Assembly: GCF_007746795.1 (NCBI RefSeq)
Contig: NZ_CP036343.1
Coordinates: 4,625,357-4,689,356, forward strand
Length of the DNA: 64,000 nt
Source: Gimesia algae
GTDB lineage: Bacteria > Planctomycetota > Planctomycetia > Planctomycetales > Planctomycetaceae
Reading direction: 5' to 3'
The notes under the pieces: generated by a model
What the model saw: the letters and a program-made list of their open reading frames with translations, nothing else
Told to the model about the DNA's origin: nothing
The model's database searches: none
Part shown: in pieces, positions 47,024 through 54,621 of the stretch
How positions within the stretch are numbered: the first letter of the stretch is position 1
Layout: each line of letters starts with the position of its first letter
Program-made: the position numbers and the translations under genes

Positions 47024-49051
47024 ATGACAAGCACTCAATCACCGACGCCGGGACAGACCCGTGAACGTGTCATTCGTATCGCACGGGAGATCGAAGAGTT
47101 CGCTCACTCTAATGTGGCCGCAGAGACCTTTTTTCGAGAATTTCTCCGACGTGTAGTTGCAGGACTGGGAGCAACTGCTGGAGCTGCCTGGCTCATTGAC
47201 GACAGTGGTCGACTGGCAGTGAAAAGTGAATTGAATCTGGCTGATACCGGATTCTATGAAGAGCCAGAAGCCATCCTCAAAAACCAGCGGCTGTTATCTG
47301 ATGTCTTATCAACTGCGGAAGCGCGGATCTTTTCTGCCGATGCGGAAAATGACGTCCATTTGCCGACGGACAATCTGATTATTGTCGCAGCACTCACTAT
47401 TCGAAAAAAACCAGTTGGCGTCATTGAAATCTTTCAGCGATCCAACGCCCCCAAGCAGGCTCACCCCGGCTATCTGCAGTTTGTTGAGCAAATGTCAGGC
47501 TACGCCTCTCATTATCTGGCCGAACGAGAGAAAGCCAGTCAGACAGACGCTTCTCTGGAAGTGTGGGAGGAAGTGGACCAGTTTGTGCAACAGATTCATC
47601 GCAGCCTGGACCTGTCAGAAGTTGGCGCGACCGTTGTCAACGACGGTCGTCAATTACTGAATGCAGATCGTGTCAGTCTGGCGATGCAATACGGAAAGAA
47701 AACGGTCATTGAAGCCATCAATGGTCAGGATAAAGTCAACAAACGGGCCAACACTGTCCGCCTGCTTTCTAAATTGGCAAACAAAGCTCTGGCCATGAGA
47801 GAGACGTTCCTGTATTCCGGATCGAATGAAGCGATTCCTCCTCAGATAGAAGAGCCTCTGGCTGACTACCTGCAGGAAAGTGGAGCGCGAATGATCCTGA
47901 TTTTACCTCTCTTCGAACCAGACCAGATCATTAAATCAGACGAAGAAGCACTGGGACGCATGAAAGATGCTCCGAAAAAACTGATTGGTGGCCTGATCGT
48001 GGAACAGATTACCGACAGCCAGCCCCGCCCCCACCTGGAAAGCCGGTCTGAGCTTCTGGCTGGTCACATCGCCAGTGGAATTGCTAACTCTCGCAATTAC
48101 GAAAGCATCTTCCTGATGCCTCTCTGGAGGTTTGTCGGTCGTTGCTTCGCTGCATTGCGAGGTAAAACCCTGGTAAAAACACTGGTTATTATTGCCCTAA
48201 TCGTTGCTGCGGGTGTCGCACTGGCTCTGGTCCCTTACGATTATCGAGTGAGTTGTGACGGACGATTGATGCCTACAGTCCAGCGTGAAGTCTTTACCAA
48301 CTGGGAAGGCGAAGTCATCAAGATCCACATTGAAAGTGGTCAACTCGTGAAAAAGGGAGATCTCCTGATCGAAATTCGTAATGAAGATCTCAAAGCGCAG
48401 TTACTGGAAACAGAGAATAAGCTAAATGAACTTCAGCTGATGCGTTTAACATTAAATGCACAGCTGCAGGGTGGAAATAATAACAAACGTCCCGTCGATG
48501 AAATCACGAAACTGCGTGGCCAGAAAATCGAGACAGAGACTCAAATTACAGGAATACTGAAACAGATTGAGATTCTGAAAGACAGGCTTGATAAACTGAA
48601 TGTCAAAGCACCAATCGATGGCGTAGTAACCACATTCCAGATCGAACAACTCTTGATCAATCGCCCGGTACAACGAGGGGAACTTCTGCTGGAAATCATG
48701 GATCCGAATGGCCCCTGGCAGCTGGAACTGGACGTGGAGGAAAAGCGTATGGGGCATATCCTGCGTGCCACCGAAAGAAAGGGAGACATTGGGCTGCCAG
48801 TTGAATTCATCCTGGCAACATCGAATGAACTGTCTTACGAAGGTGAAGTCTTTGAAATTTCCACCCGCGCCAATCATTCCGAAGAGAGTGGCAGCATTGT
48901 GGAAACCTATGCCACATTTGACAAGGAAAAACTGCCTCTGCTCCGTATCGGCGCTGAAGTCAGTGCCAAAATTGATTGTGGCGAACGCAGTCTGTTCTAC
49001 GTGCTGTTTGGAGACGTGGTCGAAACCTGTCGTCGGTACTTCTGGTTTTAA
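47024..49051 (+). CDS. GAF-domain/HlyD adaptor fusion
   Basis: A 675-aa protein. The cytoplasmic ~380 residues hold two GAF-like domains (about 20-170, with TAGAAWLIDDSGRLAVKSELNL; about 180-360, with LLNADRVSLAMQYGKKTVIEAINGQDKVNKRANT). One membrane helix follows (VKTLVIIALIVAAGVALALVPY, about 384-406). The C-terminal part is a periplasmic HlyD adaptor: first lipoyl half (NWEGEVIKIHIESGQLVKKGDLL), a coiled coil (about 450-520), the second half (VKAPIDGVVTTFQIEQLLINRPVQRGELLLEI) and a beta-barrel. GAF domains bind small ligands or mediate dimers, so a cytoplasmic signal could be passed to the periplasmic arm. It is divergent from the HlyD/M50 genes and closed by a strong terminator. Confidence 0.88.
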   Translation: MTSTQSPTPGQTRERVIRIAREIEEFAHSNVAAETFFREFLRRVVAGLGATAGAAWLIDDSGRLAVKSELNLADTGFYEEPEAILKNQRLLSDVLSTAEARIFSADAENDVHLPTDNLIIVAALTIRKKPVGVIEIFQRSNAPKQAHPGYLQFVEQMSGYASHYLAEREKASQTDASLEVWEEVDQFVQQIHRSLDLSEVGATVVNDGRQLLNADRVSLAMQYGKKTVIEAINGQDKVNKRANTVRLLSKLANKALAMRETFLYSGSNEAIPPQIEEPLADYLQESGARMILILPLFEPDQIIKSDEEALGRMKDAPKKLIGGLIVEQITDSQPRPHLESRSELLAGHIASGIANSRNYESIFLMPLWRFVGRCFAALRGKTLVKTLVIIALIVAAGVALALVPYDYRVSCDGRLMPTVQREVFTNWEGEVIKIHIESGQLVKKGDLLIEIRNEDLKAQLLETENKLNELQLMRLTLNAQLQGGNNNKRPVDEITKLRGQKIETETQITGILKQIEILKDRLDKLNVKAPIDGVVTTFQIEQLLINRPVQRGELLLEIMDPNGPWQLELDVEEKRMGHILRATERKGDIGLPVEFILATSNELSYEGEVFEISTRANHSEESGSIVETYATFDKEKLPLLRIGAEVSAKIDCGERSLFYVLFGDVVETCRRYFWF

Positions 49052-51320: not shown

Positions 51321-52031
51321 TCAGGTTGAATCATTCTGCTGCCGGTCCGTTACGATCCGTTCCACCTGGACTCCTTCGGGAGAGGGTGTGAACTGAAAGA
51401 TGGTATCGGCATAACGTTCAAACATCACCGGGTCGTGGTGACTGATCATGATAATCTGGAAGCCGAGTGCCTGCCCCGCCTCATGAATAATTTTCACTAA
51501 CCGTGGTACCAGATCGGGCCGCAGCCAGCAATCCTGTTCGTCCAGTACCAGTATGCGTCGATGCTCTGTTTCATCGAGTGTCATCAACGCAAACATTCGC
51601 AGGCCGACCGAGAGGATATTCGCTACCGAGCCCCCCTGCCCTCGCATGATGTCTTCCGTGTTTCCTTCTCGTTCGATCTGAAACTCGACGGTAGCCGCGT
51701 TACGTTTCCACTCCGCAACCGCCTTGAGTTTGAGTGGCTGTTCCAGCACTTCCTGCAAGGCGATGGTCAGTTTGTCTTGAATCATCTGCAGTTCCTGCTC
51801 GAACAGCTGTCCACTCAGCGTCTCCAGCGCTTCGGTCACCTGCTCTGAAATCGCCAGGTACGCTTCGGTCTGCTGCAGTTGCTGATTGAGTTGCGCCTGA
51901 TCCTTCTCTTTCTGTTTGCGTACCGCGGATAATTCCCAGCAGCGACGCTGTAGACTCAGGGGAGTCCGCAGTTCCGCAGGCGTGGTCGCCGCATCAGTTT
52001 GAGAAGTCATATCGCCGTTCATATCGCTCAT
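51321..52031 (-). CDS. Rad50/SbcC C-terminal half (separate gene)
   Basis: A 236-aa protein that matches only the last part of an SMC/Rad50-type ATPase. A coiled-coil arm (about 25-90, SAVRKQKEKDQAQLNQQLQQTE) leads into the C-terminal head: ABC-type signature region RGQGGSVANILSVGLRMFAL (about 129-148), Walker B ILVLDEQD (about 159-166) and the switch His in MISHHD. There is no Walker A in the chain, so it must pair with another subunit; the 54621-53278 protein supplies one. Together they would complete a Rad50-like ATPase. The signature is not the canonical LSGGE. It lies 14 bp downstream of the small coiled-coil gene, last in the module. Confidence 0.8.
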   Translation of the reverse strand: MSDMNGDMTSQTDAATTPAELRTPLSLQRRCWELSAVRKQKEKDQAQLNQQLQQTEAYLAISEQVTEALETLSGQLFEQELQMIQDKLTIALQEVLEQPLKLKAVAEWKRNAATVEFQIEREGNTEDIMRGQGGSVANILSVGLRMFALMTLDETEHRRILVLDEQDCWLRPDLVPRLVKIIHEAGQALGFQIIMISHHDPVMFERYADTIFQFTPSPEGVQVERIVTDRQQNDST

Positions 52032-52045
52032 TTCAGCCGCCCCGA

Positions 52046-52351
52046 TCAGGGTGCATCGGACGCGTTGTAGGCCGTTTCAATTTTGGTGAGTTCCGCCTCA
52101 ATCTTTTCCAGACTCTGATGGTACTCGGCCCGCTTACGGGCATTTTCATCTTTGATCTGCTGCAACTTCGTTTTGAGTTCTTCCAGCTGATCGGTCCCAT
52201 ACTCTTCCTGAGCCTGCTGTTTGAGCTCGTTCAGATTCTTTTCGGCGTTTACCAGATCGCGTTCGGATTCAATCTTGCGTTTATTCAGTTTCTGGAACTG
52301 TTCAGTCAGCGTTTCAATATCGGGAACAGCTCCCGGCTGGTCATTCGTCAT
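52046..52351 (-). CDS. Small free coiled-coil protein in the Rad50/Mre11 module
   Basis: A protein of 101 aa from the ATG at 52351, which overlaps the nuclease gene stop by 11 nt and has GAGG upstream. An alternative start at 52366 adds five residues. Almost all of it is heptad-type helix (IETLTEQFQKLNKRKIESE, LEELKTKLQQIKDENARKR, EKIEAELTKIETAYN). No ATPase motif is present. Given its place between the two ATPase halves' genes, it may form part of the returning coiled-coil arm after the zinc hook. That role is inferred from position alone. Confidence 0.7.
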   Translation of the reverse strand: MTNDQPGAVPDIETLTEQFQKLNKRKIESERDLVNAEKNLNELKQQAQEEYGTDQLEELKTKLQQIKDENARKRAEYHQSLEKIEAELTKIETAYNASDAP

Positions 52352-53288
52352 GGCTGGATACCTCATCTGCTAATTTCTGTATTTCAGTTGCCACGGTTGT
52401 TTCAAACTGTGGCAGATTTTTCTCCAGGAACAGTTTGAGACCTGCCCCCGTATCTGTTCTGCGAGACTGTAATTCGGCCAGTCCCGAAATAAAAGCGGAA
52501 GGGAGTCCTTCCTCGGTTTCATCCTGTACTTCGGGATGGAAGATATCCTTAAACGCCTCATGCGGGATAACAAGGTTCGATCGCTGCCAGCCCGCTGCAG
52601 TCACTTCCAGCTTGAGAACGGAGGGGATGTGTGCCTGCGTAGCATCGCTACGGGAGCGGCGGATAATATTTCCCGGAGTAACCCAGGTGGTCTGTCCCTT
52701 TTGAACGTCTTCCAGCTGTCGGTGAATGTGCCCATTCACGACGTATGCCACGCCTTCGATTTCGTATGGTCTCAAGTGCCCCTGCTCTTCGTATCCGGGT
52801 ACCAGAATATCGTGATGCGTGACCCAGACTACGAGTGGCGACTCGTCTTCCTGCTGAAAGGCATCGGCTTTAGGCAGTTTCTGTCCCCAGGATGTGCCGC
52901 CCACCAGGACAGAGCGCCCCGCCATGATGCCCCGCCAGGGGGTTTCTGGCGAAAGTAACCGATAGCGGCCGGCCTGGATCAGAATGCTCAGTGTATCATG
53001 TTCATTCAGCTGGTTTTCCCGGCAGTCGTGGTTCCCATAGATGCCATACACGGGCGTTTCGAAGAGCGTGAGCAATTCACAGAGCAACCAGTTCTGATTG
53101 TCACGGGGGACATGAAACAGATCCCCCAGGATCACAGGCAGTAGCCTCTGCTCCTGCGCTGTCTGCAGGCACCACTTTAGTTTCTCCAGCACCACGCGGG
53201 GATAGTCGTCCTTGCGAAACCCGGGAACTCGTCCCTCGATGTGCGGATCCCCGATGAGCAGCACTCCCTGGTATTCCTCATGCGTCAT
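52341..53288 (-). CDS. SbcD/Mre11-like metallophosphoesterase
   Basis: A 315-aa calcineurin-like phosphoesterase. The metal-site motifs are all present: GDPHIEG (Asp14, His16), GDLFH (about 55-59), GNHD (about 86-89), VTHHD (about 157) and NGHIH (about 186-190), which fits an Mn-dependent nuclease of the Mre11/SbcD type. The C-terminal ~100 residues probably form the capping and Rad50-binding region and end in a helix. It overlaps the upstream ATPase gene and the downstream coiled-coil gene by 11 nt each, so all three are translationally coupled. DNA end processing is inferred from the family. Confidence 0.88.
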   Translation of the reverse strand: MTHEEYQGVLLIGDPHIEGRVPGFRKDDYPRVVLEKLKWCLQTAQEQRLLPVILGDLFHVPRDNQNWLLCELLTLFETPVYGIYGNHDCRENQLNEHDTLSILIQAGRYRLLSPETPWRGIMAGRSVLVGGTSWGQKLPKADAFQQEDESPLVVWVTHHDILVPGYEEQGHLRPYEIEGVAYVVNGHIHRQLEDVQKGQTTWVTPGNIIRRSRSDATQAHIPSVLKLEVTAAGWQRSNLVIPHEAFKDIFHPEVQDETEEGLPSAFISGLAELQSRRTDTGAGLKLFLEKNLPQFETTVATEIQKLADEVSSHDE

Positions 53289-54621
53289 GCGAGTGCCCTC
53301 TCAATCCGGTCTCTGCAGACTGCAAAAACTGATCTGGTTCCAGCTCTGCACCGCAGGTCGGGCAGGTCGGATTCTCTGCCACCCACTCTCGCAGTTCCGA
53401 ACACACGCGTTCAAACGCTGCTTCCGCTTTTGCGTGAATCTGTTTCCGTTCCAGAAACTCGGTTTCTAGAGCGGTCCACTGCTGACAGACCTGCGTCAGG
53501 TGGGCGCCATCAACCAATTCAGGGGGCGGAACACATTTCGCGAGTATTTGTGCTTCCTGCTGATCCACTTGGACCCGCTCTGCCGCCGTGGACAGTCGAG
53601 CGATCAGCTTTTCCAGATTGTCTGGTGAGGTCAACTGCGGTGGATCCTGCAGATCTTCCAGGCAACTGTGTGTGGCAACCGAATACTGGCAGATCACGGA
53701 TTGCAGTTCTGTCTCTTTGATAAGTTCCGCCAGCGCGGACTCATCTTCAATGGTTGGCGGGATACTCAAAGGCAGTAAAGCGGTGACGGCAACCTGGGAC
53801 CGCTGCTGTTCCTGTTCGATGCCCTGCCAGCGATGGACGAGCACTTCCAGTGGACGCTCATTTTCCTGCTGGAGTTCCGTCGGTAAGTCGCTCAAACAGG
53901 CAGCGCGGCGGGCATAAAGCTCTACGCGTTCGCTAGCTTGGGTCAGCCCCTGAATCAGGATTTCCAGCTGCTGAATCTGTTGTATTTCGGCCTGGAGTGC
54001 CTGATACGTCTGGTCGAGTGTTTCGAGTCGCGATTCCAGATCCGGAACTGGCTGCAGGAGTTCCAGAGTTGCGGCGTTCTGTTTCTGCTCGGCCTGCTGT
54101 CGCTGATATTCCTGCTGCGCCGCTTTGACTTTACTGCGGTGCAGCTTCTGCATTTCGATCAGGACCGATGCATCAGAGGAAGACGCAAAGAACCGGGCGG
54201 CACGACTGCCCCGGTCCCCTAACAGAAAAATGGGCGACTTCTGCTCGCCGAAATGCACGTCGAATTCATCGCTGTCCCCCGACTTGACTTTCGCCAGCCG
54301 CAGAACTTCGGTCAGGATCTCCGGGACGCTGTTTCGGAGGCGATGAAAATCCTGCCCGTCAATCGTGTAGCTGACCACTTTCTTTTTGCGCTTCCATTCG
54401 ATGACGTGGCCATCATCGGTTTCCACGATCACCCGGCACTCTTTTGCACCGTGCCTGACCATGTAATCGCCAGAGGTATTTTCAGCCAGAACCTGCAGCG
54501 CAGAAACGAACGCTGACTTACCGCAGTTATTGGGCCCCGTCAACACGGTTAACCCGGGCGACAGCTCGATCTCGGTAAACGCATGGCTCATAAAGTTATG
54601 TAGTGTAATCCGTTTCAACAT
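53278..54621 (-). CDS. Rad50/SbcC N-terminal half ending in a zinc hook (separate gene)
   Basis: A 447-aa AAA/ABC-type ATPase half. It opens MLKRITLHNFMSHAFTEIEL and has Walker A in LTGPNNCGKSAF (about 31-42) and a Q-loop-like EQKSPIFLLGDRGS. Then comes a coiled-coil arm (about 160-415; Gln/Glu/Leu-rich, e.g. LETLDQTYQALQAEIQQ). The chain ends 24 residues after the zinc hook CPTC (420-423). No Walker B or signature is present, unlike full-length Rad50 (800 or more residues), so the second head half must come from another chain. It is the first gene of the module, which reads on the minus strand. Confidence 0.88.
   Translation of the reverse strand: MLKRITLHNFMSHAFTEIELSPGLTVLTGPNNCGKSAFVSALQVLAENTSGDYMVRHGAKECRVIVETDDGHVIEWKRKKKVVSYTIDGQDFHRLRNSVPEILTEVLRLAKVKSGDSDEFDVHFGEQKSPIFLLGDRGSRAARFFASSSDASVLIEMQKLHRSKVKAAQQEYQRQQAEQKQNAATLELLQPVPDLESRLETLDQTYQALQAEIQQIQQLEILIQGLTQASERVELYARRAACLSDLPTELQQENERPLEVLVHRWQGIEQEQQRSQVAVTALLPLSIPPTIEDESALAELIKETELQSVICQYSVATHSCLEDLQDPPQLTSPDNLEKLIARLSTAAERVQVDQQEAQILAKCVPPPELVDGAHLTQVCQQWTALETEFLERKQIHAKAEAAFERVCSELREWVAENPTCPTCGAELEPDQFLQSAETGLRGHSHDA

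Follow-up and report, generated by a model that had tools for sequence, protein, structure and literature searches.

The window analysed here is a stretch of 64,000 nucleotides (positions 4,625,357 to 4,689,356) from NZ_CP036343.1, the single contig of the 7.93 Mb genome of the planctomycete Gimesia algae. It contains four consecutive minus-strand genes, named A, B, C and D in their direction of reading, which encode the two halves of a Rad50/SbcC-like ATPase, an Mre11/SbcD-like nuclease and a small helical protein. Together they make up a real and conserved Mre11-Rad50-like set in split form, whose arm is of a new design, and we estimate at roughly 0.8 the probability that this set is an Mre11-Rad50 (SbcCD-type) DNA end-processing complex with a permanently split Rad50 chain. 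The genes and their features are as follows, in window coordinates and with lengths in amino acids (aa).

53278..54621, minus strand: gene A, N-terminal half of the Rad50/SbcC-like ATPase (N-lobe, helical arm and terminal CPTC), 447 aa
54514..54537, minus strand: Walker A GPNNCGKS, A residues 29-36; pattern present in 41/41 bacterial and 33/33 phage-type A proteins
53374..53853, minus strand: helical arm part of A, residues 257-416, with 39-residue PP repeats
53353..53364, minus strand: CPTC, A residues 420-423, 24 residues from the C-terminus, with HSH near the end
52341..53288, minus strand: gene B, Mre11/SbcD-like nuclease, 315 aa
53241..53249, minus strand: metal motif I DPH, B residues 14-16; D14 and H16 invariant in 20 diverse alignment rows
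52722..52730, minus strand: metal motif V HIH, B residues 187-189; invariant in 16 alignment rows, H189 also in the 20 diverse rows
52046..52366, minus strand: gene C, small helical protein, 106 aa
51321..52031, minus strand: gene D, C-terminal half of the Rad50/SbcC-like ATPase (short coil and C-lobe), 236 aa
51594..51641, minus strand: signature-like GQGGSVANILSVGLRM, D residues 131-146; G133, G134, L144 and R145 invariant in 36 alignment rows
51537..51554, minus strand: Walker B ILVLDE, D residues 160-165; pattern present in 56/56 bacterial and 32/32 phage-type D proteins
51438..51440, minus strand: switch His, D residue 198; invariant in the 36 rows

The four reading frames had already been described in a reading of the DNA without database searches, called the sequence-only reading in the following, and we found them in the same places and with the same motifs. 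A and B overlap by 11 bp and B and C by 26 bp, while 14 bp separate C from D, a spacing as in an operon; Met6 of C is a possible alternative start. Above the Pfam cut-off, A is assigned to AAA_23 (7.7e-13), AAA_15 and, barely, AAA_27, and B to Metallophos (1.1e-9). No family is assigned to C or D, and D could therefore pass for a hypothetical protein. All four genes are under purifying selection: the ratio of nonsynonymous to synonymous substitution rates (dN/dS) is 0.14-0.15 for A and 0.05-0.10 for B, C and D, so C is constrained as strongly as B and D (dS could be computed in 13/20 comparisons).

A and D carry complementary parts of a Rad50/SbcC head. The N-lobe features, Walker A and a Q-loop candidate (Q127, assigned by eye), are found in A, and the C-lobe features, signature, Walker B and switch His, in D. 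The signature GQGGS (residues 131-135) was likewise assigned by eye and is degenerate across D proteins (GQGGS, RGGG); in the D model its GG lies at the start of the helix 133-150. GQGGS, LVLDE (161-165) and H198 are nearly all invariant in 16 alignment rows, and the switch-His pattern is present in 55/56 bacterial and 32/32 phage-type D proteins, the lone miss (L128) having an SHH outside the tested stretch. Instead of one chain of 800-1300 residues that holds both lobes, the window encodes two chains of 447 and 236 aa. According to the sequence-only reading, a Walker A in D or a Walker B in A would speak against a split. The Walker A pattern occurs in none of the 56 bacterial and none of the 32 phage-type D proteins, and no Walker B is present in the A protein of the window. 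A string of the type hhhhDE, which is absent from this protein, occurs in 5/41 bacterial A proteins (IFLLDE, near residue 130) and was rejected as a Walker B because of its position about 100 residues behind Walker A.

Profile and structure comparisons lead to the same assignment. Aligned by hhalign to a full-length planctomycete SbcC, the A profile covers SbcC residues 4-517, from the N-lobe to the hook (probability 98.9, E 3e-17), with the CPTCG of A falling on the SbcC hook. The AlphaFold2 model of A has a predicted local distance difference test score (pLDDT) of 80.5; Foldseek ranks Rad50 (1f2u_C, 1.0e-5) first, and VIA-align of residues 1-189 finds RecF, SMC and Rad50 heads alike, with Z scores of 13.7 for 9a5q_B, 13.5 for 1xex_A and 11.4 for 1f2u_A. 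For D, modelled with a pLDDT of 82.5 and a predicted template-modelling score (pTM) of 0.62, the best fold match is the C-terminal half of Pyrococcus furiosus Rad50 (9a9j_B, E 3.2e-8, Z 12.9, root-mean-square deviation 3.9 over 164 residues). Motifs, SbcC profile alignments and fold matches thus agree with the division into complementary head halves that the sequence-only reading had proposed. Comparing the A and D profiles with each other gave a probability of 0.8, and hence no sign of a hidden duplication.

The assignment of B as an Mre11-like nuclease, made from its metal motifs, is supported. Residues D14/H16, D56, N86/H87, H158 and H187/H189, which we take to be the metal ligands, are invariant in 16 alignment rows. 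A wider B profile retrieved Mre11/SbcD first among known structures, with Thermotoga maritima Mre11 at 8.5e-14 and with Methanocaldococcus jannaschii Mre11 and others among the matches, and a narrower profile built from 16 near relatives gave no match in the PDB at E 0.01. B therefore combines the motifs of a calcineurin-type phosphoesterase with profile kinship to Mre11/SbcD. It differs from these proteins by its shortness (about 315 aa), and its gene lies between the halves of the ATPase partner in bacterial loci or behind both of them in 27 viral contigs. The roughly 80 C-terminal residues of B are conserved as well.

Homologues of D were used to follow the set through other genomes. D is present in 14 of the 16 congeners searched, corresponding to 14/14 at a completeness of at least 90%; the other two genomes are 74-76% complete. 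It was found in one of 20 other genomes of the family searched alongside (G020) and in 16/392 genomes of the phylum (G. algae among them), with frame lengths of 233-258 aa. A match in G037 (1.6e-5) belongs to a different frame of 449 aa and was rejected. Scanning genome contigs with the D profile, with one genome per species and 84,980 species, yielded 45 confirmed loci, a lower bound because two short patterns were used. Within the Planctomycetota these belong to Gimesia, Planctomicrobium, Thalassoglobus, Pirellulaceae, Gemmataceae, Mariniblastus and others. Elsewhere they belong to Desulfobacterales and to single or paired metagenome-assembled genomes (MAGs) labelled Spirochaetes, Sumerlaeia, Poribacteria, Nitrospira and proteobacteria, such labels being fallible. 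In a tree of D, the Thermodesulfobacteriota form one group (100/99). The Planctomycetota do not (three changes, at least two of them forced) and include rows from Pseudomonadota and Sumerlaeota; the phages stand outside on long, unreliable branches. The A profile matches at least 232 of 384 genomes of the phylum at E up to 0.001, mostly over some 50 residues round the Walker A of other ATPases. Such matches were not counted as A; only long ones in D-bearing genomes and in G394 (locus L155, with A, B and D) were.

The sequence-only reading would have been contradicted by a lack of conserved gene order in relatives. After dropping 7 duplicate loci, the order A-B-C-D on one strand is found in 49/59 bacterial D loci. 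Among the remaining ten, six are cut by a contig end (L112, L125, L129, L139, L141, L149), and four, in Pirellulaceae and Planctomycetaceae MAGs, contain a lone D (L138, L140, L142, L146). Three of the four genomes carry a complete A on another contig, followed by B and C, with C cut in one case. D can thus leave the operon and is still kept, as expected of a separate subunit. In L138, L142 and L146 the lone D sits before the same two downstream genes. Median intergenic distances, with starts chosen by script, are -8 bp between A and B, -11 bp between B and C and +12 bp between C and D (range -53 to 357). The protein distances of the A head, B, C and D correlate over 26 non-Gimesia loci (r 0.34-0.72), and none of 2000 permutations gave values as high.

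The arm of A is built differently from that of SbcC. Behind residue 256, AlphaFold2 predicts helices 257-281, 294-322, 333-362 and 372-416, which are 25-45 residues long and joined by short loops, and PP motifs occur at residues 282, 321 and 357-361. In 41 complete bacterial A proteins, 50 of 86 spacings between PP motifs are exactly 39 residues, 77 lie within 36-42, 8 at 75-81 and one elsewhere; without Gimesia, 27 proteins provide 65 spacings, 36 of them exactly 39. Self-comparison places 39 among the two highest peaks in 20/21 bacterial A proteins tested, with z at 39 reaching 14, the short A of L088 being the exception. The signal is stronger in relatives than in the A protein of the window, which peaks at 78 (z 4.1) and then at 39 (z 2.9). 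In A proteins of the Bacillus-phage type (L057-L083) the period is mostly 47 residues, as the highest peak in 7/9 contigs tested and the second in 2/9. Among five other phage-type A proteins the highest peak is never at 39; it falls at 38 in one and at 42 in another, where 39 ranks second. For the arms of five SbcC controls, z at 39 ranges from -2.1 to 1.1, with a weak peak at 47 (2.6) in one of them. What the sequence-only reading called a coiled coil is therefore a helical arm made of successive helices that recur every 39 residues, and not one continuous coil.

At the end of this arm the CPTC motif closes the chain, often with an HxH behind it. CxxC occurs within the last 45 aa of 39/41 bacterial and 32/33 phage-type A proteins, and HxH follows it in 48 of 79, compared with 8 of 820 other open reading frame ends, a background from which the A proteins themselves were excluded. 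By group, HxH is present in 15/15 Gimesia loci, 20/27 viral contigs and 13/37 others. This enrichment raises the possibility that CxxC and HxH form a self-contained zinc knuckle by which the arm docks on another protein, on DNA or on C, without any Rad50 hook. The absence of a long helix behind the CxxC of A, unlike in SbcC, fits this as well, whereas the alignment of the CPxCG with the SbcC hook and the lack of HxH in 31/79 A tails argue against it. We regard the knuckle as a tentative option, worth keeping in mind but less likely than not. Two planctomycete A proteins without CxxC (L130:2455-4719 and L133:429-1889) end in a shared extra domain, which in L130 is preceded by a likely transmembrane helix (identified by eye), as if the tip of the arm were tied to the membrane.

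A second question concerns the returning strand of the arm. The sequence-only reading assigned part of it to C, and A and D could in principle rebuild an ordinary Rad50, with C and the coil of D as returning strand and the hook at the break. Consistent with this, the C profile aligns just behind the SbcC hook (residues 548-680), very weakly (probability 6.5), and C lies between A and D, mostly adjoining D, in the 27 viral contigs. However, any lengthening of A would have to be matched by a normal returning arm. With hook positions from residue 340 to 659, arm lengths in A differ by as much as about 320 residues, yet C (92-125 aa) and D (212-283 aa) hardly change in size. Over 38 loci, hook position and the summed length of C and D are related with r = 0.11 (C and D starts chosen by script, truncated rows L032 and L150 left out). 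The conserved central loop of C and the 39-residue period, not seen in the five SbcC controls, also argue against an ascending and a returning strand running antiparallel. We therefore consider a rebuilt ordinary Rad50 unlikely; the returning arm of normal Rad50 seems to have been lost and not to be supplied by C. The arm of A would then stand by itself, perhaps as an up-and-down stack.

C is conserved in 16 alignment rows and was aligned with 28 further sequences from bacteria and phages. To judge from these alignments, it looks like a helix-loop-helix hairpin in both bacteria and phages, with loops such as YGTD, GVTPE or NIDPN. The long D frames of L075, L076, L082 and L157 were considered as natural C-D fusions and rejected, since a separate C lies upstream and the extra residues are, by eye, unlike C.

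Phage versions of the set were reached by tblastn and through IMG/VR. The order A, C (77-79 aa), D, B is found in all 27 viral contigs reached from Bacillus phage vB_BboS-125, itself one of them. In this phage the same three parts (gp32, gp34 and gp35) are annotated separately as exonuclease, hypothetical protein and ATPase and are filed under three PHROGs, 16465, 18563 and 15167. Notes in the record liken gp32 to SbcC, and the set is not called a split Rad50. It differs from the set of the window by its nuclease gene behind D and by the lack of a 39-residue period. Microcystis phage Mvi-JY20 has the bacterial order A-B-C-D. In phage LR745208 (485 kb), the genes A to D follow one another in the bacterial order, separated by other genes, one of which encodes a PD-(D/E)XK protein; a RecA gene is found a short way ahead of A. 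In Tunturi_5, A and C stand together, B follows about 1.5 kb behind A and D lies about 107 kb away; genes annotated as UvsX, RuvC and single-stranded DNA-binding protein precede A. The genes recovered from Magritte are unlinked, D lying at 0.3 kb, A at 94 kb and B at 120 kb. The PHROGs model for SbcC is matched over 299-427 by the A protein of one phage and over 874-952 by its D protein. In IMG/VR, the Gimesia-type D profile gave 33 stretches and the D of Mvi-JY20 four, none of which was confirmed. In Bacillus-phage-type contigs an AP2-domain gene (vB_BboS-125; L026:6398-6970) or an unnamed gene for a protein of about 100 aa (L060-L072) lies between A and C. The planctomycete contig G394:C21 (locus L155) carries A, B and D of the LR745208 phage type; it is possibly a phage or prophage and was counted among the phage-type loci.

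These observations can be combined into a model of the complex. The N-lobe of A and the C-lobe of D would together form one ABC ATPase head, and two such A/D heads are predicted to close on ATP at shared sites while seated on a dimer of the B nuclease. From each head the arm of 39-residue helical repeats would project, with the CPxC zinc site at its free end, where zinc binding could tether two tips and contribute to nuclease gating. With the returning arm apparently missing, the short coil of D could pair with the first helix of A, and C, as a separate helical hairpin, would probably brace the arm or the head. The complex is predicted to act in the repair of DNA breaks and, in phages, in recombination-linked replication.

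The set shares with Rad50/SbcC the Walker A N-lobe, the C-lobe with signature, Walker B and switch His, the CPxC at the arm tip and the nuclease gene alongside. It differs by its separate half chains, the apparently missing returning arm, the additional protein C and an arm of 39-residue repeats (mostly of 47 residues in the Bacillus-phage contigs examined). The two-chain crystal forms of P. furiosus Rad50 (1f2u, 1ii8) resemble A and D in having N- and C-terminal halves as separate chains, and such half chains are among the best fold matches of both proteins. They were reportedly expressed as two halves for crystallography, whereas the split of A and D is natural and the returning arm seems to be missing. 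On balance, we lean towards regarding the set as a separate class of Mre11-Rad50 systems of several phyla and of phages, with a composite head from two genes, no returning arm, a ruler-like arm built of whole 39-residue helical repeats, their number determining how far the terminal zinc site reaches, and a small hairpin subunit.

Several points count against a split Mre11-Rad50 complex. The head of A resembles those of structural maintenance of chromosomes (SMC) proteins and RecF as well as that of Rad50, RecF being the top row of VIA-align, and the pTM of the A model is only 0.35, so the course of the arm is not fixed by it. D matches SbcC weakly in hhalign (residues 939-1043, the last 105; probability 26, E 7e-4). 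As HxH is common behind CxxC, a single chain may complete the zinc site without a partner, and the A proteins of L130 and L133 and Magritte gp155 have no CxxC at all. No clear C was found in Magritte, and no A in the fourth genome with a lone D (G430, a MAG). Finally, shared descent alone would also produce correlated protein distances.

The sequence-only reading had asked whether a full-length SbcC exists elsewhere in the genome and had considered a role as defence nuclease. TIGR00618 and TIGR00619 gave no match above cut-off in the G. algae genome, a weak test because the controls reach cut-off in 1/14 and 8/14 genomes. Below cut-off, TIGR00618 matched short stretches of two frames, one of 1022 aa (6.8e-4) and one of 245 aa (9.8e-4), with 10/48 candidates scored, and TIGR00619 matched none. 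Within the limits of that search, no clear SbcC was therefore found. End-to-end SbcC-like chains, themselves below cut-off, together with an SbcD above cut-off were seen only in family f3 among 59 genomes searched. The genome does contain a full-length Rad50-like ATPase of 1413 aa with AAA_27 and DUF4332 (L165:5043-9284; G000:C1, about 7.21 Mb), which presumably resembles YhaN. Directly upstream lies a gene for a 446-aa protein without a Pfam name at 1e-4 (both genes, L165:3706-9284). This ATPase shares with the split set the Rad50-like head and another gene directly upstream, but it is a single chain with DUF4332 and belongs to a different family. Consequently, the split complex need not be the only Rad50-like machine of this genome.

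With regard to defence, the set might act as an anti-phage ATPase-nuclease, like Lamassu, PARIS or Gabija, that cuts DNA on sensing phage ends. In PADLOC, A matches AriA (6e-12, residues 1-91) and LmuB (7e-9, residues 2-428) among 83 models at E up to 1, and D matches mad3 (7e-6); VIA-align places two Lamassu chains near D (Z 7.8-8.0), and the spread of the set across phyla is patchy. Most of the listed matches of A span the N-lobe only, however, and for B PADLOC yields nothing at E up to 1. A and D resemble several AAA ATPase models weakly to moderately, and no single system with ATPase and nuclease emerges. Ten flanking genes chosen from eight other loci belong to efflux, redox, channel, GTPase and similar families, with no clear defence gene; the only PADLOC match among them is a weak one to LeoA/LeoBC in a gene that Pfam assigns to the HflX-type GTPases. 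Furthermore, all 14 near-complete congeners carry the set, and phages themselves possess it. A defence function therefore appears quite improbable. Given the uniform presence in near-complete congeners, the ordinary neighbours and the recombination genes beside it in some phages, DNA end processing, repair or recombination fits better and is our best guess. Decay of a full-length Rad50 interrupted by inserted genes, to which the match of A and D with the two ends of one SbcC chain might point, is refuted by the conservation of the same arrangement in many genera and phyla at dN/dS 0.05-0.15, with Walker A in 41/41 A, Walker B in 56/56 D and D kept even on another contig. Nor is the split a sequencing frameshift, which the sequence-only reading had already judged unlikely.

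In the prevailing view, Rad50 and SMC proteins require a single out-and-back chain that mechanically links the hook or hinge to the ATPase head. A natural and widespread form with separate halves, seemingly without a returning arm, would show which parts of Rad50 are indispensable, and the graded arm lengths of the phage and bacterial sets make the role of arm and hook in nuclease gating and DNA tethering directly testable. The occurrence of the same four-gene set in several bacterial phyla and in phages offers a natural experiment on the construction of such machines, and the split-Rad50 reading joins three PHROG families that have been filed apart. In jumbo phages, split Pol III, split RNA polymerase and nearly universal SbcCD have been described, in passages that contain no split SbcC (PMC7824862). 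Outside subscription journals and preprints, the literature searched, PMC6375668 included, contained no description of a naturally split Rad50/SbcC.

In the window, the A-B-C-D set is flanked by genes that Pfam assigns to a POT transporter and a lactonase. Further away, at positions 47024-49051, lies a gene for a 675-aa protein in which, by eye, a GAF-like sensor is joined to an HlyD-like membrane-fusion part.

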